Of a stretch of DNA of 34,946 bases, positions 6,883 to 29,367 are shown one piece after another; position 1 is the stretch's first letter, and every line of letters starts with the position of its first letter. Source of the stretch: Orenia metallireducens (GTDB lineage Bacteria; Bacillota; Halanaerobiia; Halobacteroidales; Halobacteroidaceae); NCBI RefSeq assembly GCF_001693735.1, contig NZ_LWDV01000008.1, forward strand, positions 521,273 to 556,218. The letters are read 5' to 3'. The position numbers were made by a program, and so were the translations under genes. The notes below the pieces were generated by a model. That model saw only the letters and a list, made by a program, of their open reading frames with translations, did not search any database and was not told the origin of the DNA.

Positions 6883-7851
6883 ATGGATATCGCACAGGTA
6901 GAAACAAAGGTATTAGAGAAGAAGGAGTTAATCAGTTTAGTCAAAAAAGAGATAGCAAAGTCGGTAGTTGGGCAAGATTATATGATTGAAAGAATCTTAA
7001 TTGGAATCTTTACTGGTGGTCATATACTATTAGAGGGTGTTCCAGGCTTGGCTAAATCACTGACAGTCAATACCTGTTCTAAGGTTTTGGGAGTAGAGTT
7101 TAAAAGGATACAATTTACTCCTGATTTACTTCCAGCAGATATCTTGGGAACAGAGATATATAAACAGCATACAGGGGAGTTTGTGACCAAAAAGGGTCCA
7201 ATTTTTGCTAATATTATTCTTGCTGATGAGATTAATCGGGCACCTGCTAAGGTACAGTCAGCTTTATTGGAGGCTATGCAGGAGAAGCAAGTTACTATTG
7301 GAGAAGAGACCTATCCTTTAGATAGACCCTTTTTAGTACTGGCTACTCAAAACCCATTAGAACAGCAGGGAACGTATCCTTTGCCAGAGGCTCAGCAGGA
7401 TAGATTTATGATGAAATTAAAGGTAGGCTATCCAAGTAAAGCAGAGGAGAAGAAGGTTATTAACTTGCTAACTGAGAAAGGAAGATTGGAAGATATTCAG
7501 ATAAATAGACTATTGAGTAGAGAGAGAATCTTTGAGATTAGAAATATAGTTAGAGATATCTATGTTGATGAGAATTTAAAGGATTATGTCCTTGATATCA
7601 TCTTTAAGACTAGAGAAGAGAACCAATACATAGCCTGTGGTGCTTCACCAAGGGCTTCTATTAATTTAATCTTAGCAGCCAAAGGTCGGGCCTTCTTAGA
7701 AGGAAGAGCTTATGTAGTACCTGATGATATTAAAGCTGTAGTTTATGATGTCTTGCGCCATAGAATCTTACTTAGTTATGAAGCAGAAGCTGAGGAGATT
7801 AGTGAAGAGGATATAATTGCTGAGATTTTGGACAATGTTAGATTACCGTAG
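6883..7851 (+). CDS. moxR: MoxR-family AAA+ ATPase
   Basis: The product has 322 residues. The Walker A loop is GVPGLAKS (52-59), Walker B is IILADE (111-116), sensor 1 is in ATQNP (N157), and the C-terminal lid domain includes SPRASINL. MoxR ATPases act as chaperones that, with von Willebrand factor A (VWA) proteins, insert metals or assemble protein complexes. ATG at 6883 lies 12 nt after AGGGAGG; a TTG at 6871 would directly abut that site and is unlikely to be the start. It heads the operon moxR, DUF58, DUF4381-like, batA, batB, batC, batD, which is the standard order of Bat (Bacteroides aerotolerance) loci. Confidence 0.93.
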   Translation: MDIAQVETKVLEKKELISLVKKEIAKSVVGQDYMIERILIGIFTGGHILLEGVPGLAKSLTVNTCSKVLGVEFKRIQFTPDLLPADILGTEIYKQHTGEFVTKKGPIFANIILADEINRAPAKVQSALLEAMQEKQVTIGEETYPLDRPFLVLATQNPLEQQGTYPLPEAQQDRFMMKLKVGYPSKAEEKKVINLLTEKGRLEDIQINRLLSRERIFEIRNIVRDIYVDENLKDYVLDIIFKTREENQYIACGASPRASINLILAAKGRAFLEGRAYVVPDDIKAVVYDVLRHRILLSYEAEAEEISEEDIIAEILDNVRLP

Positions 7852-7880: not shown

Positions 7881-7910
7881 AATTACTTGTTACTAGTAAC
7901 TCATTACTGA
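7881..7910. repeat. Dispersed repeat, family B (TTACTAGTAACT type), short copy
   Basis: AATTACTTGTTACTAGTAAC plus TCATTACTGA fills the gap between moxR and the DUF58 gene. Related sequence is at 12711-12747, 29268-29342 and 31941-31963. Confidence 0.5.
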
Positions 7911-7930
7911 ACTTCAGGAGGTGAATTATT

Positions 7931-8749
7931 ATCATTTCTAAAGAGCTAATTAAGAAGATAAGAAGAATAGAGATTAAGTCCAATCAAATAGTTGAAGAGA
8001 TATTCTGTGGGGAGTATCGTTCAGCCTTCCAAGGAAAGGGTATGGAGTTTGATGAGATTCGGGAGTATTATCCTGGTGATGAGATTAGAAGTATTGATTG
8101 GAATGTAACGGCTCGTCAGAATAAGGCATATATCAAGAAGTTCCAGGAAGAACGGGAAATGAATATGTTCTTATTAATAGATATGTCCTGCTCCAATAGT
8201 TTTGGTAAGAAGAAGGATATTATAGCTGAGATTGGTGCTACTCTTGCTTTTTCAGCTGTTAAGAATAGTGATAAGGTAGGTAGTATTCTATTTACTGATA
8301 AGGTTGAGAAGCTGATACCATCTAAAAAGGGCAAGAGGCATGTCTTATCTATTATTGAGGAAATCTTAAGCTTCAAACCAAGCAATCAAGGAACAAATAT
8401 AAAAAAGGCTTTGCAATATTTTAATAGGATAGAGAAGAAGAGGAGCATAGTCTTCTTAATCTCTGATTTTCTGGACAAGGATTATGAGAAGGAGTTGAAG
8501 ATAGCTGATAAGAAGCATGATTTAATTCTAATTAAAGTTATCGATAAAGCTGAGGAGAGTTTACCTAAGGGGGCTATCTTTGAATTTGAAGATTTAGAGA
8601 CTGGTGAGACTATTGTCTTAGATAATTTACAAGGAAGGACTGAACTAAATTCAGATGCCAAATTGCCAGCTAGAAATTTACTTACTATCTATACAGATGA
8701 GGACTTTGTTAAAGCATTAATGTTATTTTTTAGGAGGAGAATGAGATAA
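7931..8749 (+). CDS. DUF58-domain protein of the Bat operon, apparent non-AUG start
   Basis: The protein has about 272 residues. The family signature CGEYRSAFQGKGMEFDEIRE followed by YYPGDEIRSIDWN-VTAR is intact, as is a degenerate VWA-like core (FLLIDMSCSN). The conserved N-terminal helix SKELIKKIRRIEIKSNQIVE is encoded upstream of the first ATG (8042), so translation must begin near 7925-7934. The codons there are ATT, ATT, ATC, ATT, preceded by a stop (7922-7924) and by the strong site CAGGAGGTGA (7915-7924). ATC at 7931 (9 nt after GGAGG) gives the usual M-x-SKEL start and is my choice; ATT at 7928 or 7934 is possible. DUF58 proteins accompany MoxR ATPases, but their biochemical role is not settled. 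The protein lacks membrane segments. Confidence 0.85.
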   Translation: MISKELIKKIRRIEIKSNQIVEEIFCGEYRSAFQGKGMEFDEIREYYPGDEIRSIDWNVTARQNKAYIKKFQEEREMNMFLLIDMSCSNSFGKKKDIIAEIGATLAFSAVKNSDKVGSILFTDKVEKLIPSKKGKRHVLSIIEEILSFKPSNQGTNIKKALQYFNRIEKKRSIVFLISDFLDKDYEKELKIADKKHDLILIKVIDKAEESLPKGAIFEFEDLETGETIVLDNLQGRTELNSDAKLPARNLLTIYTDEDFVKALMLFFRRRMR

Positions 8750-8751
8750 GA

Positions 8752-9549
8752 ATGAGAAGAAGTCGTATCATATTAGTTTTACTTTTGCTTTTGTCTTTGC
8801 TAGTCTTAGTTAATAGCTATACATATGGTGAAAATAGAGCTATTTATATTGGTGATTTGATTAAATTAGAGATTGCTAATACTAATTTATCTAAAGAAGA
8901 TATTAGAGATAGCTTTAAAGATTTTGAGATAGAGAGCTTAGAAAAATTAGATTCAGGCTACCAAGTAGGAATTAGGAGCTTTGAAGCAGGGGAGAAGGTT
9001 GTCAATTTAGGCGATAAGGAGTTGAAGATTCAAGTAGCATCAACCTTGGATGAGGTTAATCGCAAGGATATCTTTGAAGGGGATTTAGAGCCTAAAGAAG
9101 CTGAGAAAATGCTGCCTTTGTATAAATTATTAGTTGTTATGGTTGCTATCATTGCACTCTTATCATTTCTACGTTTAAGAAAGATATTTGGCAAGAGAAA
9201 TAGAAAAGAGTTGAGTATTTATAGTCAGTTTAGAACTAAGGTAGAGGAGCTTAGCCTTAAGGATGAGAATTATTTTGTCTTCTTAACTCTTGCCTTTAAG
9301 GATTATCTAGAACAGACCTTCAATTGTAAAATTGTAGGTAAGACCTCTAGTGAGATTATTGCAGAGATAAATTATATTCCTCAATTGGATGATTATCTAA
9401 ACCAGATTAAAGAGTGGTTGAACTTTGCTGATATCTGCAAGTATAGAGGCAAGGAGGTCAGCCTAGAAAAAAAGGAGAAAAAGCGTGATGAATTGGTCAG
9501 AATAGTCGATTTGATAGAAGCAAGTAAAGAAGGTGTGAATTATGTTTAG
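8752..9549 (+). CDS. Membrane protein of the Bat operon, DUF4381-like position and topology
   Basis: The product has 265 residues. An N-terminal hydrophobic segment (5-22, a signal anchor or signal peptide) is followed by about 100 external residues, a transmembrane helix at about 126-143 (LLVVMVAIIALLSFLRL), and a cytoplasmic part of 120 residues. That part contains FKDYLEQTFNCKIVGKTSSE and a charged tail. This layout and its place between DUF58 and BatA match the DUF4381 or BatD-like small subunit of other MoxR operons, though the sequence is too diverged for me to name the family securely. It starts 2 bp after the previous stop and overlaps batA by 8 bp, so translation is coupled. Confidence 0.6.
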   Translation: MRRSRIILVLLLLLSLLVLVNSYTYGENRAIYIGDLIKLEIANTNLSKEDIRDSFKDFEIESLEKLDSGYQVGIRSFEAGEKVVNLGDKELKIQVASTLDEVNRKDIFEGDLEPKEAEKMLPLYKLLVVMVAIIALLSFLRLRKIFGKRNRKELSIYSQFRTKVEELSLKDENYFVFLTLAFKDYLEQTFNCKIVGKTSSEIIAEINYIPQLDDYLNQIKEWLNFADICKYRGKEVSLEKKEKKRDELVRIVDLIEASKEGVNYV

Positions 9550-10516
9550 GTTTTTACACTGGTATCTTTTATTTTTGATTCCGATACTTATATATATGTT
9601 TTTCCAGAAGAGAGGGACTAAGAGTATAGGATTTTCAAGTATTACTCTGCTAAAAGAAGCAGGGATGAAGAAAACTATCAAACATAAGATTGGAAGGTAT
9701 CTAATCTTAGCGGGGATTATTTTATTAGTAGTTGCTCTAGCACGTCCTCAATCAGGAAAAGAGTTGAGAAATATCAAGAAGGAAGGGATAGATATTGTAG
9801 TAGCCTTAGATGTATCAGGAAGTATGAAGTCGATAGATTTTGAACCAAATCGCCTTAGTGTGGCTAAAGATACTATCAGTAGGTTCATTGAAGGCAGGAA
9901 GGTCGATAGAATCTCTTTAGTTATCTTCTCTGGAACTGCTTATACCAAGATACCTTTGACCTTGGACCATAATATTTTAAAAGAGACTTTAGCTAGTACA
10001 AGTACAGAGGATGTTAATAGAGATGGAACTGCTATTGGGATGGGGATTTCTGTTGGGATTAACCGCCTAAAGAAGAGTAAGTCAAAATCTAAGGTAATTA
10101 TCCTAGTGACCGATGGAGAGAACAATGCTGGCAAGATAAATCCTAAGACAGCTAGCAAGTTAGCTAAGGATATGGGGATTAAGATATATACCGTTGGGGT
10201 AGGAAGTGATATTACAAAAGTACCTGTTGGCAAAGATTTTTTTGGTCAAGTTAGATATCAGACCTATCGAGGTGGGCTAGATGAAGAGCTGCTAAAGCAG
10301 ATTGCCACAGCTACTCAAGGGGAGTACTTTAGAGCTAAGGATTCCAATGCTTTAGAGGAGATATTTGATAGAATTGACCAGCTTGAAAAGACAGAGTTTG
10401 ATGTTAATAACTACTTTGAATATAGAGAATTGGCTTTTGGTTTTATTAAATTGGGATTATTACTTATTTTAGTTGGGATATTTTTAGAGAAATATCTCTT
10501 TTTAAAGATACCATGA
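9542..10516 (+). CDS. batA: BatA, VWA-domain membrane protein
   Basis: The product has 324 residues. Two N-terminal membrane segments (about 8-20 and 52-66) carry the BatA_N type sequence ending in ALARPQ. A VWA domain follows, with the metal-ion-dependent adhesion motif DVSGS (D90, S92, S94) and the later TDGENNAG. A last membrane helix lies near 300-318. The VWA domain therefore sits outside the membrane, held by helices at both ends. VWA proteins of this operon are thought to work with MoxR and with BatB in envelope stress tolerance. The gene overlaps its upstream neighbour by 8 bp. Confidence 0.9.
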   Translation: MFRFLHWYLLFLIPILIYMFFQKRGTKSIGFSSITLLKEAGMKKTIKHKIGRYLILAGIILLVVALARPQSGKELRNIKKEGIDIVVALDVSGSMKSIDFEPNRLSVAKDTISRFIEGRKVDRISLVIFSGTAYTKIPLTLDHNILKETLASTSTEDVNRDGTAIGMGISVGINRLKKSKSKSKVIILVTDGENNAGKINPKTASKLAKDMGIKIYTVGVGSDITKVPVGKDFFGQVRYQTYRGGLDEELLKQIATATQGEYFRAKDSNALEEIFDRIDQLEKTEFDVNNYFEYRELAFGFIKLGLLLILVGIFLEKYLFLKIP

Positions 10517-10638: not shown

Positions 10639-11610
10639 GTGGAATTTACTAATATAAAAAATTCAATATACTTCTTAATTCCAATTCTAGTACTTATAAC
10701 TTTGATATTAGCTTATCAGAAACGTAATGGGATTATTAAAGCTTTGTCTTTTGATATAGATTATAGGTTTAAAGTAATTAAACCTACCTTAATGACCATG
10801 GGTATCTTATTGATAGCTTTTTCTTTGCTAAATCCTCAGATCCTTAAAGGGTATCAAGAGGTAGAAAAATCAGGTTTAGATATGTATTTATTAATAGATA
10901 TTTCTAAAAGTATGTTAGCTGAGGATATTAAACCAAATAGATTGGAGAGAACCAAAAAGAGTATTGAGAATCTAATTGATTCTTTAGAGGGGGATAGAGT
11001 TGGCTTTATTCCTTTCTCATCAGATTCCTATGTACAGATGCCTTTGACTGATGATTATGATTTGGCAAAGATGTTCTTAGAGGTAATGGATACTGATATG
11101 ATTGCTGGGGGAGGAACGAATATTGCTTCAGCCTTAAAATTGGCTAAGGAATCCTTTGATGAATCGGCTAAGGGTGACAAGGTTGTAGTTATCTTCAGTG
11201 ATGGAGAGGAGCATAACCAATCTGGAATAGAGGTAGCTGAGAATTTAGGAAAGGTGAAGGTATATACAGTAGGTGTTGGTACCGAAGATGGGGCATTAAT
11301 TCCTGAATATGACAGTCAGGGGAACAGAGTTGGTTATAAGAGGGATCAATCGGGGAAGTATGTCAACTCTAAGCTGAATATATCCTCCTTAAGAGAGATT
11401 GCAGAGAGTGGAGGGGGCAAGTCTTATCTTGTTTCTTTAATAGGTGATGAGATTGAGCAGTTAATCGATGATATATCTAAATTGAAGAGGGATAAGTATA
11501 GTAAAGATAAGATAAAGAAGTTTATTAAGATATATCAATACTTCTTAGCAACTGGTCTATTCCTATTCTTATTAGGATATCTTTTGCCTGAATGGAGGGG
11601 GCTTAAATGA
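10639..11610 (+). CDS. batB: BatB, VWA-domain membrane protein
   Basis: The product has 323 residues and the same plan as BatA: membrane segments at about 10-25 and 49-64, a VWA domain with DISKS (D87, S89, S91) and FSDGEEHNQSG, and a C-terminal membrane helix near 299-316. The GTG start at 10639 follows GGGGGTGAG (10624-10632). A family A repeat separates it from batA. Its stop overlaps the batC start (ATGA), so the two are translationally coupled. BatA and BatB probably form a pair on the external face of the inner membrane. Confidence 0.9.
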   Translation: MEFTNIKNSIYFLIPILVLITLILAYQKRNGIIKALSFDIDYRFKVIKPTLMTMGILLIAFSLLNPQILKGYQEVEKSGLDMYLLIDISKSMLAEDIKPNRLERTKKSIENLIDSLEGDRVGFIPFSSDSYVQMPLTDDYDLAKMFLEVMDTDMIAGGGTNIASALKLAKESFDESAKGDKVVVIFSDGEEHNQSGIEVAENLGKVKVYTVGVGTEDGALIPEYDSQGNRVGYKRDQSGKYVNSKLNISSLREIAESGGGKSYLVSLIGDEIEQLIDDISKLKRDKYSKDKIKKFIKIYQYFLATGLFLFLLGYLLPEWRGLK

Positions 11611-12503
11611 AGAGAATCTCTTGTTACTTTATCTTGGCTTTAATGATAGTATCTCTATTATCAGGGTGTAATAGAGATCAGAAGAGTATAGCTCAGCTGA
11701 TAGAAGAAGGTAATCAGCTCTATAATCAGGGCAAATATCAGGAAGCTATAAATATCTATCAATCAGGATTAACAGTTAATTCAGGTAATCAGCAATTAAA
11801 TTATAATTTGGCTAATGCTCTATATAGACTGGGGAAATATAAAGAATCCTTGAGTTACTATAATCAAGCAACTAAGGATAAAGAGGTTTATATGAATATA
11901 GGTAATGTTTATAAGATGTTAGGTGATCAAAGCAAACAGCTAGCTGAGAAGATTAAGAATTATCAAGAGGCTTTGAATAATTATAAATCAGCAATTAAGC
12001 TAGATATGAATGATAAAGAGTTAAAATTTAACTATGAATATGTTAATAAATTATTAAGAGAATTGAATGATAAGCAACAAAACAAACAAGATAATAAGAA
12101 AAAAGAAGAAAATAAAGATAATCAAGAGAAAAAACAGGATAATGAAGGTAAGGAAGACTCTCAAGATAAGAAACAGCAGAATAAAGAAAATAGTCAAAAC
12201 CAAAATACTAAGCAACAGAATCAATCAGATAAGCAGAAGCAACAAGATAATAAGGGGGCAGAAGAAAAAGAGAGTAAATCTAGTGGAGATAGTCAGACTA
12301 AAGAGAATAAAGAAGATGGCAAGCAAGAAGAATCTGCTAAAGAAAGTAGCATAAAAGAGGAAGATGGTAAGTTAGATCAAAAGAAATTACAGGAAGCCTT
12401 CAGTATACTCCAAGCACTAGAGAAAGAGGAAGAGGATAGTCTTAAGAACAATCAGAAGATAAAGAAGCCTGGAGATAATCAAGGTGATAAGTATGATTGG
12501 TAG
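11607..12503 (+). CDS. batC: BatC-like TPR lipoprotein with a long charged linker
   Basis: The product has 298 residues. The lipobox LSGC (Cys 21) follows a short signal peptide. Residues 28-150 hold about three TPR units (for example LYNQGKYQEAINIYQSGLTV and NYNLANALYRLGKYKESLSY). Residues 150-255 are almost only K, Q, N, E, D and S, an unstructured hydrophilic linker. The final 45 residues (AFSILQALEKEEEDSLKNNQ to the terminal DW) match the conserved C-terminus of BatC proteins. It overlaps batB by 4 bp. In diderms it would sit on the periplasmic side and recruit BatA, BatB and BatD partners. Confidence 0.85.
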   Translation: MKRISCYFILALMIVSLLSGCNRDQKSIAQLIEEGNQLYNQGKYQEAINIYQSGLTVNSGNQQLNYNLANALYRLGKYKESLSYYNQATKDKEVYMNIGNVYKMLGDQSKQLAEKIKNYQEALNNYKSAIKLDMNDKELKFNYEYVNKLLRELNDKQQNKQDNKKKEENKDNQEKKQDNEGKEDSQDKKQQNKENSQNQNTKQQNQSDKQKQQDNKGAEEKESKSSGDSQTKENKEDGKQEESAKESSIKEEDGKLDQKKLQEAFSILQALEKEEEDSLKNNQKIKKPGDNQGDKYDW

Positions 12504-12810: not shown

Positions 12811-14469
12811 GTGAAGAGGATAATCAATGTAATAATATCTTCATTACTTTTTTTATTAATCTTCTCTGCTCTGATTTTTGGGGCAGAAGAAGAATTTCGT
12901 TTAGATATAGATGATCTTTATTTATCGGAAGGAACAAGTACCAATCTAGTGATCTCATTAAAGGATACTAAAGGGGCAGAACTTGTTGAAGTAGAAGGCT
13001 TAGATAACTTTCAAGTTCTGTCTAAGAGGTCAGGTAGTCAAACGACTATTATCAATATGGAGAGAAGTTACAGTAAACAATATCATTATGTAATTATGCC
13101 TAAGGAAGTAGGGGAGTTTACTTTACAAGGGGTAGTTGAATATAAGGGTAAGACCTACAGAACGAATAAGCTGCAGATTAAAGTAGAGGAGAGAAAAGTG
13201 AATCATAATCAGGATAATAGCAATATCTTTATTAGAACGACTCTATCTAAAGATAAGATTTACTTTGGTCAGAAGATCATTCTAAAGTATGATCTATTTA
13301 CTCGTTATAATTTGGAGAACTATGGCTTCCTAGAAGAATTCAACTTCAATGATTTTATCAGTCAGGTCAAATCCCAAGACCAATTAAAGGCTAACTATGT
13401 CTACCTTGATGGGAAGAAGTATATCAAGTATGAGGTGGGACAGATTATCTTAACCCCAACTAAGACAGGTAAATTAAAAATACCTGACTACCCTTTCCAA
13501 GCAAATATCAGTACAGGGGATTTCTTTAGTTCTTCTAAAGCTACTTACTTTAATACAGAAGCTAAGACTATCGAGGTTTTGCCATTACCTCAAGAGGGGC
13601 AACCTGAGGATTTTACAGGAATTGTTGGTAATTTACAATTAGATAGTAACTTGGCTGATCAAGAGGTGGAGTATGGTGATTCTACAACCTTAAATATTAA
13701 GCTAACAGGTGATGTAAACTTAGATAGTCTTGATAAGATTTTAGATAATGACATTTCTGGCTTTGAGATTTATCAGACTCAGAAGGATAAGAAAGAAGAG
13801 ATCAGAGGGATGGAATACTATGCTGAAAAGAATTTTGATGTTATTCTTGTTCCTAAAGAGAGTGGTGAGCTTAACCTTCCTGAAATCAAGCTACCTTACT
13901 TCAATCCAGAGAAGAAAGAGTATGAGTACGCTACTATAGCAGCAAAAACTATTAAAGTTAATGGTGGGGTTAAAAAGGTACAACAGAATCTAGTTGCAAG
14001 TAGCAATCCTGCTAAGGAATCCCAAAATAAGAGTATAGAGATATCCCAAATTAATACTACTGCTCAAACCGATGAAGGTTATTATACCTTTAAGATTAAG
14101 AAGAATTATCTCAAAATAGCCTTAGCTACAATTGGACTATTGATTCTTTTAATGATTATCTACTTGGCAGTCAATAGGTATAAGGGTAGTGAAGATGAAG
14201 AGTTAAAAGAATATTATAAGCAGATCAAAAAAGCTAAGGATGAGGAAGAACTCTATCATCTTTTCAATCAGATAATAAAGTATAAATATAATATCAGCCT
14301 TAAGGCCAATTCCAAGGCAGAGCTATCAGCTAGAATTTCTGATGTTGAGTTATTAGCTAATATTTATGAGATTATAGATTATATCGAGAATAAGAGGTAT
14401 AGTGGCAATGAAGTAAGTTTAGATATGAAGGAAAAAATTAAAGAAATTTATAAAAAAATAAACAATTAG
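12811..14469 (+). CDS. batD: BatD, oxygen-tolerance protein
   Basis: The product has 552 residues. After a signal peptide (about 1-24) come several beta-sandwich repeats of BatD type, visible in the strings YHYVIMPKEVGEFTL, LTPTKTGKLKIPDYPF and VPKESGELNLPEIKLPYFNP, each the P-x-x-x-G-x-(L/Y)-x-(L/I)-P turn. One membrane helix (about 434-454) and a cytoplasmic tail of about 100 residues follow. GTG at 12811 lies 7 nt after GGAGG. It is the last gene of the operon, separated from batC by about 300 bp of repeats, so it may be partly uncoupled. Large external domains of this kind are presumed to bind the BatA and BatB VWA proteins. Confidence 0.88.
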   Translation: MKRIINVIISSLLFLLIFSALIFGAEEEFRLDIDDLYLSEGTSTNLVISLKDTKGAELVEVEGLDNFQVLSKRSGSQTTIINMERSYSKQYHYVIMPKEVGEFTLQGVVEYKGKTYRTNKLQIKVEERKVNHNQDNSNIFIRTTLSKDKIYFGQKIILKYDLFTRYNLENYGFLEEFNFNDFISQVKSQDQLKANYVYLDGKKYIKYEVGQIILTPTKTGKLKIPDYPFQANISTGDFFSSSKATYFNTEAKTIEVLPLPQEGQPEDFTGIVGNLQLDSNLADQEVEYGDSTTLNIKLTGDVNLDSLDKILDNDISGFEIYQTQKDKKEEIRGMEYYAEKNFDVILVPKESGELNLPEIKLPYFNPEKKEYEYATIAAKTIKVNGGVKKVQQNLVASSNPAKESQNKSIEISQINTTAQTDEGYYTFKIKKNYLKIALATIGLLILLMIIYLAVNRYKGSEDEELKEYYKQIKKAKDEEELYHLFNQIIKYKYNISLKANSKAELSARISDVELLANIYEIIDYIENKRYSGNEVSLDMKEKIKEIYKKINN

Positions 14470-14485: not shown

Positions 14486-14911
14486 ATCAATCTAGAAATG
14501 ATTAACTTAAGTTTAAAATCTTCTACTAAAGATATAGTTTTGTAGGAAATGGTTGAGTTATTTTATTAAGCAGGGAAAATAATCTCTAAAGAGGATTTTT
14601 ATAATAAAATCTTAGCAAGAGAAGCAGAAAGTACGACAGGAATGGGGCCTATTCCCCATGGTAAGAACAAGGGGGTTAATGAATTATCTCTTGCTTTAGG
14701 TATATCTAAAGAAGGTGTAGATTTTGAGAGCCTTGATGGGAAAGCAGTGCATATACTTTTTATGGTTGCAGATTTAGCTGATTATTCTCCTAAATATCTA
14801 AAATTATTATCTAGAATTTCAATTTTAGTAAGAAATGGTGAGTTTAGAGAAGCTATTTTAGCGGCATCTACCCCTAAAGAGGTTCTAAATATAATTAAGG
14901 AATACGAATAG
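14486..14911 (+). pseudogene. PTS fructose/mannitol-type EIIA domain, decayed
   Basis: One frame reads INLEMINLSLKSSTKDIVL, a TAG (14543-14545), EMVELFY, a TAA (14567-14569), then AGKIISKEDFYNKILAREAE and STTGMGPIPHGK onward to a stop at 14911. This is the EIIA fold of the fructose/mannitol family, and the phosphorylated His of IPHGK is kept. Two stop codons stand where a Lys or Gln is expected. Three residues of the usual GxGxxIPH turn are missing, because GMG runs straight into PIPH. Shine-Dalgarno AGAGGAG (14471-14477) precedes ATC at 14486; an in-frame ATG is at 14498. Only a piece from 14642 remains open. No EIIB or EIIC partner is nearby. Confidence 0.75.
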
Positions 14912-23961: not shown

Positions 23962-24933
23962 ATGAAAAAAATAATTATTATTTTAATCTTGTTAGGGATA
24001 ATCTTTAATATTATATCAGATAATCAAATGAGCTCTGATATGATAGAGGTTGATGATGATAATTGGGAATATGCTTTAGGGGATTTACCTGTAGATAAAG
24101 ATGAGAATATTAATATAGAAGCTATTTGGCATCCTTTGCAGTTAAATAGATACATAAAATCTTCTAGTCAATATGATTATACTTGGATAAGGGTCAAGTT
24201 GCCAAATGAAAATTTAACGAATAAATCAATTTATACAACTTATTCTTCAGTAGTAATATTCCCCCACGAATTTTATTTAGATGGGAAGCAGATTTTTAAG
24301 AATGGGGAACTTGAGGGTAAAGAAGAACCTGTTGAGGTCATACATAGGATTACTCCATTACCACAGAATATACAGGGAAGGTATTTATACATTAGATTTT
24401 ATAACAATAAGCATAGACTATTAGTGGAAAAGAGTCTAATCTCTCTCATTTCTTCTCATAGTAATATAGTTAGAAATATATTTTCTATAGGATTTTTGGA
24501 CTTATGTTTAAGTATTCTGTACTTATTAGTAGGTGGATTTATACTGGTCATATTCTCTTTTAAAAGAAATGAGTTGAGATATCTTTACCTAGGAACTTTT
24601 TTAGCCTTAGCTTCTTTATATACAGTTAGTAATAATGAGATAATGAGACTCTTATTTGAAGGATATGAGCTTTTTGTAATTCATTACTTTAGTAGCTGTG
24701 CTCTTGCTGCAACATTTTCTTTTTGTTTAAAGGAATTTATAGATTATAAGAGTAGTTTTTTAAGGGGGATTGGATATATATATATGGTATTAGCAGGATT
24801 ATCTATCTTTGCTTATTACCTTTATCCTTTCTCAATAATAGTTGTATATAGGATTAGTGATATTTTAACCTTATTACTGGCACTTTCTGTAGTTGTTTAT
24901 CTACAAAATTATATAAAGAACGCGTTGTGCTAA
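23962..24933 (+). pseudogene. Sensor histidine kinase, 5' part, cut by an IS982-type insertion
   Basis: This is the N-terminal third of a sensor kinase. A signal or anchor helix (3-19) is followed by an external domain of about 150 residues (for example WIRVKLPNENLTNKSIYTTY, YLYIRFYNNK) and then several membrane helices from about residue 175 to 320. This is the plan of 7TMR-DISM receptors (external jelly-roll plus seven helices). Native sequence ends at 24919 after ...VVYLQNYIK; the last codons and the stop at 24931 are inside the inserted element. A Shine-Dalgarno site AAGGTGGG precedes the ATG. The shortened product could still insert in the membrane but cannot signal. Confidence 0.8.
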
Positions 24934-26052
24934 TAGATGAAATTTATATGGATGTATTTACCAGTGAATAGAAGTAAAAAGAATACCTTAGAATAATAAT
25001 CACATTTATTTGTAATTATTATCCAAATATTAACTCTTTAATTCGACCGATATTAATTGTTCTTCCAAGAGTTTTATTAATGAAATAACCTAGATTATGT
25101 GCTAAAACTTTAACTTTAATTTTAGTCGTTAATCCCCAAAGTGATTTTGTGAGTACATTTGATATATTGAATTGTTCATCAAGTTGAGAAAAAGACGTTT
25201 CAACCCTTCTCCTAACCTTTGAGATTATTTTTTTAAATGCTTTTGGGTGCGGATCTTTACTATTCTTTCGTTTTATAGGGATAAGATCAATATTTTTCTC
25301 ATCTTTTAAGATATCATTTAAGTCATTACTGATATATCCTTTATCTCCTATAATTTTTAAAGAATGATATGGCGAAGTTAGTTCCCATAGAGTTTCTCTA
25401 TCATCTACATTAGCTGGAGTTAAATTAAAATCAGTAATATATCCATTTAAAGTAACAAGAGCATGTAGTTTAAAACCAAAATAAGTTTCTTTTTTAGATG
25501 CACAATTACCATATTCAGCTTCGCTGAAAGTTTTATTAAAATGTGCTCTCGCAAATTCACATACTGGAATAGGCATACTATCTACAATTCTATAATTATC
25601 ATACTGATAATTAAGAATTAGAGTTAATTTTTTTCGTATTTCATCTAATACAGCATGTAAATTCCTAAGTGTTCTATTAAATCTAGTTCTATGGCATACT
25701 TCTGGAAATAAATCCTTTAGATTCTTTTTTACAAAATTAAACCACGATTTTTCAGAATCAATAGTAAGTGATTCACCTACAATACTGATAGTAATTATCT
25801 CACTATCAGAAAGGATTGCTTTATCAATATTACGGCGTTCTTTAATATGTGTTGGGGTTACTTCTTGATAAATGTCATCAATTATAACATAAATAATAGT
25901 AATAAAGTCTCTTAAATTTTCAATTTCTATGGTATAATAGTTATTGGACTCCAGCATATGTTATCCTCCTATTTTAAATATTGGTTGTATTTATTATAGG
26001 ATAACATCTTTTGCTGGGGTTTTTCTATTTAAATTTAACTAGCACAACGCGT
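24920..26052 (-). mobile_element. IS982-family insertion sequence, 1133 bp, complete
   Basis: Terminal inverted repeats begin ACGCGTTGTGCTA at the left (24920-24932) and end TAGCACAACGCGT at the right (26040-26052), perfect over 13 bp. Both sides carry the direct repeat ATAAAGA (24913-24919 and 26053-26059), a 7-bp target duplication. One intact transposase on the minus strand fills the element. Deleting the element plus one repeat joins the two kinase parts in frame. Intact ends, intact transposase and an exact target duplication point to a recent insertion. Confidence 0.9.
25019..25957 (-). CDS. IS982-family transposase
   Basis: The product has 312 residues and full length for the family. 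The DDE catalytic residues lie in RIVDSMPIPVCEFAR, LKIIGDKGYISNDL and KVRRRVETSFSQLDEQ, in the expected order. An N-terminal segment (LRDFITIIYVIIDDIYQE) and RFNRTLRNLH are also typical of IS982 proteins. It is transcribed against the interrupted kinase gene. The minus-strand ATG at 25957 lies about 7 nt after AGGAGG. No frameshift or internal stop is visible, so the element may be active. Confidence 0.92.
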   Translation of the reverse strand: MLESNNYYTIEIENLRDFITIIYVIIDDIYQEVTPTHIKERRNIDKAILSDSEIITISIVGESLTIDSEKSWFNFVKKNLKDLFPEVCHRTRFNRTLRNLHAVLDEIRKKLTLILNYQYDNYRIVDSMPIPVCEFARAHFNKTFSEAEYGNCASKKETYFGFKLHALVTLNGYITDFNLTPANVDDRETLWELTSPYHSLKIIGDKGYISNDLNDILKDEKNIDLIPIKRKNSKDPHPKAFKKIISKVRRRVETSFSQLDEQFNISNVLTKSLWGLTTKIKVKVLAHNLGYFINKTLGRTINIGRIKELIFG

Positions 26053-27933
26053 ATAAAGAATAAAGAGTCTCATAGTTTGATACTATCAGGAGTCTTTTTT
26101 GAAGTGGTTACTATCTTTACACTACTTAGAAGAATACTATTTAGTTATGGAATTCTTGCTTTGAATAATACCTTTGAAAATTATTTGACAGATAGATTTA
26201 GTTTAGTTGAGCTAGGATTATTCTTATTTAGTTTATCTTTACTTTATCTATCTTTAGCTAGATTTATTAAGGTATGTCCGATACTTAATATTAAGGATAA
26301 AGAGTTAGTATTAGAAAGGGACAATTTAAAAAGGTATCTTAATTTATCTAAAATTATCTTCTTAGTCTTAGATAAGGATGGTAGAGTAAGGTTTATTAAT
26401 AAAAGAGGCTGTGAACTTTTAGGAAAAAAGGCAGAAGAAATTATAGGAAAAATGTGGTTTAAGGACTTTGATAAGAATCAGCAGAAGCTAAGATTACTAG
26501 AAAGAGTAGTAAAAGGAGAGATGGAACTACCTGATTATACTGAAGGAACCCTAGTAGATAAAGATGGTAATGAGCGTTTAATCAGTTGGTATACTAGCAC
26601 TCTAAAGGATAAGTTGGGAAATGTTGAAGGGACTATAAGTTCAGGGCTAGATATAAGTAAAAAGAGGTTATTAAATGATGAGTTAAATTCTAATACCATG
26701 AAGGTTAATTCGATTAAGAATATATCTAACCACTTAAATCATTCACTGGAATTAATATTTTCAGCTTTAAAAATATTAGATATTGTTGATGTGATATTTT
26801 TAGTTATAAATAAAGAGCAAAAGATTACTTTCTTCAATCAGGGAGGGTTTAGAGATTTTGGATATAGTGAAAAAGAAGTAGTTGGAGAGAGTGTATTTAA
26901 ATTCTGTCAGAAAGATAAAGTAGAATTAAAAAGAGGGATTGAAAATTTATTTAATGAAGAAAAGGAATTACCAGAATATGTCGAGACTAAAATCCTAACA
27001 AAGTATGGAAGTATACGGACTGTTTCTTGGCATCTTGCTCGGCTAAAGGATAGAGATGGAAAGATTCAAGGAATTTTTAGTTCTGGAATAGATATCACTG
27101 AACGGAAATGGTTAGAAGAGAAACTGGAAGATAATAAGTTACAGGTAGAATTCTTTGCTAATCTATCCCATGAACTGAGAACACCTTTGAATTTAATCTT
27201 TTCTGCATTGCAGATGCAAGAAATGTATAATAAGAAGAATTTAGATGCCAATAATTATAATAATCTCAGCAACTATACAAAGATTATGCGTCGTAATATA
27301 CATAGGCTATTAAGATTAATCAATAATCTGGTGGATATCACAAAGATCGATGCTGATTTTTATGATTTTAAGTTGGAGAATCATAATATTGTAGAGATAG
27401 TTAATAATGTAGTACTTTCTGTAAAGGATTATTTAAGTAATTCTTCTAGGGAGATTATCTTTGAATCTAAATTGTCTGAAAGGATTATTACTTGTGATTC
27501 TGTTAATATTGAAAGGATTATGCTTAATCTCTTATCTAATGCTATTAAGTTTAGTGATGAAGGTGATAAGATAATAGTAAGAGTATATGAAGAGGGTAAT
27601 TATATATACATATCTGTAAAAGATACTGGAATAGGTATTAAACAAGAGCAACAAAAGATAATTTTTGAAAGGTTTGGTCAAGCTGATAAGTCTTTTAATA
27701 GAAGAAAAGAGGGTAGTGGCATTGGATTAGTAATAGTTAAATTGCTAGTAGAGATGCATGGAGGAGAGATTAGCGTAAAAAGTAAATATGGAGAAGGAAG
27801 TGAATTTATAATTAGGTTGCCAAATATAGTGTTAGAGGATGAAGATATTGAATTTGCTGCTAAGCAGTTTGTTTTAAAAGAGGAATTAGTTGATAGGATA
27901 GAAGTTGAGTTTTCAGATATATATGAAATATAG
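26053..27933 (+). pseudogene. Sensor histidine kinase, 3' part (PAS-PAS-HisKA-HATPase), cut off from its 5' part
   Basis: After the second copy of the target repeat the kinase resumes as IKNKESHSLILSGVFFEV. The last membrane helices are followed by a PAS domain (IIFLVLDKDGRVRFINKRGC), a second PAS domain (VIFLVINKEQKITFFNQGGF), the HisKA H-box NLSHELRTPLN (His codon 27169-27171), and an ATPase domain with N box LLSNAIKFS, G1 DTGIGI, F box ERFGQ and G2 GSGIGL. A TTG at 26011 inside the insertion element opens this frame and might allow some expression of a cytoplasmic kinase piece. The repaired gene would code for 943 residues. No receiver domain or response regulator gene is adjacent. Confidence 0.8.
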
Positions 27934-28063: not shown

Positions 28064-29278
28064 ATGAAGAAGAAGATAAATAAGGTAGTTATGGCTTATT
28101 CAGGAGGATTAGATACATCAGTAGCTATTAAATGGTTACAGGACAAGTATGATGTGGAAGTAATCTGTTTTTCAGCTGATGTAGGGCAGAATGAGGATTT
28201 AACACCATTAGAAGAGAAGGCTTTAAATACAGGAGCAAGTAAGATTTATATTGAAGACTTACAAGAAGAATTTTTAAAGGAGTATGTCTTTAAAGGCTTA
28301 AAAGCTGGAGCATTATATGAAGCCAAATACCCATTGGCTACAGCTTATTCTAGACCATTGATTGCTAAGAAGATGATTGATGTTGCTAAAAAAGAAGGTG
28401 CAGATGCAGTAGCTCATGGTTGTACTGGAAAGGGAAATGACCAAGTAAGATTTGATGTTTCTTTCCAAGCATTATCCCCAGGGATTGAGATTGTAGCCCC
28501 ATTAAGAGAGTGGGAGTTTAAAGCTAGAAGTGAAGAGATTGAATATGCAGCTAAACACAATATTCCTGTAAGTGCTACTAAGAAGAGCCCTTATAGTATT
28601 GATAGAAATTTATGGGGGGTTAGTATTGAATGTGGAATCTTAGAGGATCCTTGGGCTGAACCGCCAGCAGAAGTATATCAAATTACTACTGCTCCAGAGG
28701 ATGCACCAAATGAAGCTGAATATATAGAAGTTACTTTTAAAGCTGGTGAACCAGTAGCTTTAAATGGTCAAGAATATGGTCCAGTAGAGCTAGTAAGTAA
28801 ATTAAATGAGACTGCAGGCAAACATGGTATTGGTAGAATCGATATGGTAGAGAATAGATTGGTAGGAATTAAATCTAGAGAGATTTATGAAGCACCAGCA
28901 GCTACGGTATTGATGAATGCTCATAGACATTTAGAGGATTTAGTCTTAGATAGAGAGACATACCATTATAAAGAGTTAATTGCTCAAAAATATGCTGAAC
29001 TTGTTTATTATGGACAGTGGTTCTCACCATTAAAGGCTGCTTTAGATGCCTTTGTTGATACAACTCAACAGTATGTAAATGGAACAGTAAAGCTTAAATT
29101 ATATAAAGGTAATGCTACAGTAGTAGGAAGAAAATCTGATAATTCACTATACCAAGAAAACTTAGCTACTTATGAAAAATCAGATATCTTCAACCATGAT
29201 GCTGCTATTGGATTTATCGAATTGTTCGGCCTGCCATTAAAGGTACATGGAAGTGTAAATAAGAGCAGTAACGAGTAA
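28064..29278 (+). CDS. argG: Argininosuccinate synthase
   Basis: The product has 404 residues, the usual length. The ATP-binding P-loop AYSGGLDTS is at residues 11-19. [14 protein letters not shown] and [10 protein letters not shown] follow as in ArgG proteins. The enzyme joins citrulline and aspartate with ATP to give argininosuccinate, the last but one step of arginine synthesis, in the cytoplasm. ATG at 28064 is 8 nt after GGAGG; an upstream TTG (28058) is too close to that site. The last residues SSNE and the stop lie inside a tandem repeat (GTAACGA three times, 29268-29288), so the C-terminus appears to have been reshaped by a repeat insertion. Confidence 0.97.
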
Positions 29279-29342
29279 CGAGTAACGAGTAAAAGATAAA
29301 ATAATAAGGAATTAACTCGTTACTGGTCACTCTGTTACTCGC
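29268..29342. repeat. Dispersed repeat, family B, copy overlapping the argG stop codon
   Basis: GTAACGA occurs three times in tandem (29268-29288). Facing it are AACTCGTTACTGGTCACTCT and GTTACTCG (about 29314-29342), which pair with it as a hairpin. The right arm resembles the units at 12711-12747 and 31941-31963. It separates argG from the next gene. Confidence 0.65.
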
Positions 29343-29367
29343 CGCTGATTTTAAAGGGGGAGAGTGG

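Follow-up and report, generated by a model that had tools for sequence, protein, structure and literature searches.

The window, by which we mean the whole 34,946-nucleotide stretch of Orenia metallireducens DNA analysed here, carries a bat operon that includes a DUF58 gene (Table 1). Membership in the operon is indicated by Pfam assignments, since the DUF58 domain adjoins the MoxR ATPase and BatA/VWA and BatD are encoded downstream. The neighbouring MoxR, BatA/VWA, VWA, TPR and BatD genes are all open and contain the expected domains, and the gene at 8752-9549 gave no match in Pfam. Behind the operon, a PTS EIIA-like frame (14486-14911) is interrupted early by two in-frame stops and seems to be missing a few residues ahead of its PHGK motif; it is probably a decayed gene. 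Elsewhere in the window, the minus strand carries a transposase-like gene (25019-25957) flanked by what look like two parts of one sensor histidine kinase gene (23962-24933 and 26011-27933), as though an insertion element had interrupted it.

Table 1. Features of the DUF58 locus and bat operon (window coordinates), and further ATC/ATT-start genes in the same genome (contig coordinates)
Feature	Position	Strand	Remarks
MoxR AAA+ ATPase gene	6883..7851	+	Directly 5' of DUF58; Pfam AAA_3, E=2e-64
Shine-Dalgarno (SD) sequence AGGAGGTGA	7916..7924	+	9-nt match to the 16S 3' end; last three bases form the in-frame TGA 7922-7924
AUU, possible alternative start	7928..7930	+	6 nt past GGAGG; kept in G001
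AUC, most likely start codon	7931..7933	+	9 nt past GGAGG; aligns with ATG/GTG/TTG of 18 homologues
DUF58 coding sequence	7931..8749	+	272 codons plus stop; Pfam PF01882, E=1e-68; 14-homologue alignment
Conserved N-terminal segment, 5' of the first ATG	7937..8041	+	dN/dS 0.02-0.09 (three genome pairs); many invariant residues
Internal Met codon, not start	8042..8044	+	I, L or V in many relatives
BatA/VWA protein gene	9542..10516	+	Pfam VWA and BatA
Second VWA protein gene	10639..11610	+	Pfam VWA
TPR protein gene	11607..12503	+	Pfam TPR
BatD gene	12811..14469	+	Pfam BatD
TetR-family gene	G000:C8:126913		ATC/ATT start, good SD
OpuAC-like lipoprotein gene	G000:C8:46735		ATC/ATT start, good SD
L,D-transpeptidase-like gene	G000:C9:465080		ATC/ATT start, good SD
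V4R-like gene	G000:C8:599754		ATC/ATT start, good SD

The start region of the DUF58 gene was read directly. Bases 7925-7945 are ATT ATT ATC ATT TCT AAA GAG, and the DUF58 frame after the TGA at 7922-7924 thus opens with ATT 7925, ATT 7928, ATC 7931 and ATT 7934, followed by TCT (Ser) at 7937. No ATG, GTG or TTG was found in this frame of the window between that TGA and the ATG at 8042. The initial annotation had described the SD, the stop, the four ATH codons and the lack of a canonical start before 8042, and its description and coordinates proved correct. The GGAGG core of the SD (7917-7921) lies 3, 6, 9 and 12 nt ahead of the four ATH codons. In the window's genome (G000) the distance from GGAGG to ATG peaks at 7 nt and is mostly 6-9 nt: 36, 86, 60 and 37 ATG genes have spacings of 6, 7, 8 and 9 nt, and only three and four genes have spacings of 3 and 12 nt, respectively. 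By this test ATT 7928 and ATC 7931 are well placed, and ATT 7925 and ATT 7934 poorly. An SD match of 9 nt or longer occurs in just 3.6% of 604 ATG genes. RNA structure near the DUF58 start was not stronger than in shuffled sequences (z 0.76 and -0.44). Short dispersed repeats (GTTACTNGTAAC / GTAACNAGTAAC) lie between genes, with copies in the window at 29268-29350 and at 7889, the latter just 5' of the DUF58 SD; 21 matches were counted in contig C8 of G000, compared with none in a shuffle and none in the stretches of G005, G011 and G014.

The codon corresponding to the start was then compared among homologues. Orenia metallireducens MSL40 (G001), counted here as a second species, encodes a DUF58 protein 92% identical to that of the window, and its start region, AGGAGGTGAATTATTATC, is the same as in the window; it reads AGGAGGTGA ATT ATT ATC GTT TCT, with GTT rather than ATT at the codon corresponding to 7934. 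Since a second species has the identical site, the ATH codons are not a sequencing error, which the initial annotation had named as a possible refutation. The third Orenia genome (G002) begins DUF58 with ATG GTT TCT. The corresponding starts are ATG ATT TCT in G003, ATG CTT TCA in G041, GTG ACA in G040 and TTG ACA in G050, and the clostridial and Paenibacillus homologues have ATG or, in one, GTG. When distinct homologues with roughly 50% identity or higher are counted, ATC 7931 is matched by ATG in 15, GTG in two and TTG in one of 18; in two very remote homologues (about 30% identity) the ATG stands one or four codons further 5'. The position of ATC 7931 is therefore not a matter of chance, as 18 homologues carry a canonical start exactly there, and the alignment favours ATC 7931 as the most likely start over AUU 7928. 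The orthologue alignment proposed earlier as a check on ATH conservation thus gave a divided answer: the site is identical in G001, but G002 and the other relatives are canonical, so that ATC at the DUF58 start is confined to two Orenia species. The proposal of a non-canonical ATH start is itself supported, being kept in the second species, with ATC 7931 as its most likely codon.

The initial annotation took DUF58 to be a lone case, but several genes of this lineage have apparent AUH (AUC, AUU or AUA) starts. The survey covered 1.49 Mb of G000 together with 400-kb stretches of G011, G005 and G014, the last serving as a control outside the order Halanaerobiales. A control of that size, drawn from a single genome, cannot establish that Halanaerobiales depart from other clostridia in this respect. 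Because the hexamer-based survey flagged many pseudogene fragments and antisense shadows, raw counts are left out, and each candidate was assessed from its SD, a signal peptide or the alignment of its orthologues. The infC gene has an ATT start in all three Orenia genomes (AGGAGGTGCATATAAA ATT AGT). A TetR-family gene starts with ATC in G000, G001, G002 and G004 and with ATT in G003 (five genomes, three genera), and an OpuAC-like lipoprotein gene with ATC in G000 and G001 and ATT in G004 and G011 (four genomes and two families, G011 belonging to the other family). An L,D-transpeptidase-like gene has ATC in G000 and G001, ATT in G002 (three Orenia species) and GTG in G005, and in a V4R-like gene the ATC of G000 is matched by GTG in G001. 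One further candidate, C8:273380, was dropped because its GGAGG belongs to a terminator-like hairpin. Compared with ATG genes, seven ATH genes had longer SDs (p=0.01), in a set that is biased by having been partly found through its SDs.

A less selective test was applied to frames of 100 codons or more, opening no more than eight codons from a stop and 3' of AGGAG or GGAGG, with no canonical start nearby; the resulting lists may include some pseudogene fragments. An AUH codon stood at proper spacing in 8 of 14 such frames in G000 (2.5 expected, p=0.001), in 4 of 6 in G011 (0.9 expected, p=0.005), in 2 of 4 in G005 (0.6 expected, p=0.12) and in neither of the two frames from G014. Single-genome ATH-start candidates, named from sequence reading, were also noted in G011:C1 (TrkH-like, HTH-CBS, AI-2E-like and YbeY-like, at offsets 25785, 346366, 51417 and 269446 of the stretch from 400001) and in G005:C1 (helicase-like and ABC-permease-like, at offsets 139971 and 384187 of the stretch from 800001). 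From these sequence comparisons AUH initiation looks recurrent in Halanaerobiales. The reading that we favour, with a probability of roughly 0.88, is that the DUF58 gene is intact and translated from AUC 7931, AUU 7928 being a possible but less favoured start, as one case of this broader use of AUH starts.

The initial annotation had suggested that a low-efficiency start could set the dose of this subunit. As a specific device that fixes the level of DUF58 relative to MoxR and the VWA proteins, the AUC start has a precedent in Streptomyces sigR, where a GTC start behind AGGAGGTG is repressed through IF3 and holds SigR below RsrA (PMC5472188), and the retention of ATC in two species would fit such a role. 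On the other hand, ATG, GTG or TTG is found in the third Orenia species and in every other relative, starts of the AUH kind occur in unrelated genes of the lineage, and the unusually strong DUF58 SD acts in the opposite direction and may compensate for the codon. Nor need an AUH start be weak in clostridia: in reporters of Clostridium sporogenes and C. butyricum, AUC, AUU and AUA gave 5-100% of AUG activity in two 5' UTR contexts, compared with 0.04-3% in E. coli (PMC9680021). A substitution tolerated in an AUH-permissive lineage is the simpler reading; dose setting is possible but is not favoured, and we consider it unlikely.

Translation might instead begin at the internal Met 8042, giving a 235-residue protein with the Pfam DUF58 core and without the N-terminal segment. 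This is the first canonical start in the frame, a weak SD-like AAGGA lies about 6 nt upstream of it in the window, and the Pfam domain begins five residues past it. However, the upstream segment of DUF58 is under strong purifying selection. Over the 35 codons from the start to Met 8042, pS was 0.59-0.84 and pN 0.05-0.17, and dN/dS was 0.02, 0.04 and 0.09 in the three of four genome pairs that gave an estimate, dS being saturated in the fourth. The 14-homologue alignment contains many invariant residues in the same interval, whereas Met 8042 itself is replaced by I, L or V in several relatives. The strength of purifying selection 5' of Met 8042 indicates that this segment is translated. Moreover, the SD-like bases encode a conserved QGKG and the AAGGA is lost in G001 (CAA GGC AAG GGG), and a start at Met 8042 would leave the 9-nt SD at 7916 without a purpose. 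This start is thus very improbable.

Still less probable is that loss of the start codon has silenced DUF58 within an intact operon, as an early pseudogene, an option also raised by the initial annotation. Although ATG, GTG and TTG are indeed missing at the start, the frame has neither stops nor frameshifts, the protein and operon are intact and every dN/dS that could be estimated is under 0.1. The same state is shared by two species whose proteins are 92% identical and whose synonymous sites stand at about 0.5-0.7 changes per site, which shows long maintenance under selection. Least credible is a start at GTG 7921 in another frame with a +1 shift into the DUF58 frame near TTC-TAA: both ATC species do have GTG AAT TAT TAT (CAT/CGT) TTC TAA, but this GTG is itself part of the SD and lacks another one ahead of it, relatives begin at the aligned ATG and need no shift, and to our knowledge TTC to TCT is not among the known slippery shifts.

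Initiation at AUC 7931 could proceed with ordinary components. One initiator-type tRNA gene was found, with anticodon CAU, C1/A72 and the usual GGG-CCC stem; no second initiator tRNA with another anticodon occurred in the partial set of tRNA genes read. An altered IF3 was also considered as a cause, and the IF3 sequence aligns normally with IF3s of solved structure. Because the initiator anticodon is CAU, AUC would be read with a third-position mismatch, only its A and U being paired, and the 9-nt SD would stabilise the mismatched initiation complex. The first DUF58 residue would then be fMet, which we infer, as we do initiation itself. Given that infC in these genomes itself has an AUU start, AUH genes should be sensitive to IF3, the DUF58 AUC start among them; they would be expressed at somewhat lower levels than an AUG gene, depending on how much IF3 is present. 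A tentative extension, which we regard as rather doubtful, is that start choice is generally relaxed in Halanaerobiales: each genome would have some tens of genes that begin at AUC, AUU or AUA, among them genes for transport and the cell envelope. These would use the ordinary initiator tRNA and form an IF3-sensitive set, with an output that tracks the abundance of IF3 or the ionic state of cells adapted to salt.

Natural AUH starts are held to be exceptional. Here, roughly 2.3 Mb of sequence from a single order yielded several conserved cases, some of them shared between genera or families. No paper on recurrent AUH starts in Halanaerobiales was found in searches of open-licence papers. Genes with AUC, AUU or AUA starts will probably be misplaced or overlooked by standard gene finders; if initiation is confirmed, gene calling in Halanaerobiales needs to admit ATH starts, and the order would offer a natural system for the trade-off between IF3 and SD strength in start selection.

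In gene content and order the operon resembles other bat (MoxR-DUF58-VWA-BatD) operons, and only the DUF58 start codon, in two Orenia species, is unusual. The AUU start of infC, with autoregulation by IF3, is known from other bacteria. Like DUF58, infC has an AUH start behind a strong SD that is conserved between species; unlike it, DUF58 is not a translation factor and so has no self-regulating logic, its codon is AUC and its relatives use AUG. DUF58 shares with sigR a non-canonical start ending in C, a long SD (AGGAGGTG in sigR, AGGAGGTGA in DUF58), conservation within the genus and membership in a multi-protein operon, but IF3 repression and the effect on stoichiometry were shown by experiment for sigR (PMC5472188), whereas for DUF58 both would be predictions. 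The clostridial reporters also come from low-GC anaerobic Firmicutes and used the same start codons, but were engineered, and natural genes were not identified in that study (PMC9680021). Across 36 genome groups, AUU had replaced one of 61,358 ancestral AUG starts, and a change to AUC is not listed (PMC5622118). The DUF58 gene joins a known class of starts, of the infC kind, and what would interest specialists is the recurrence of AUH starts and their conservation across Halanaerobiales.
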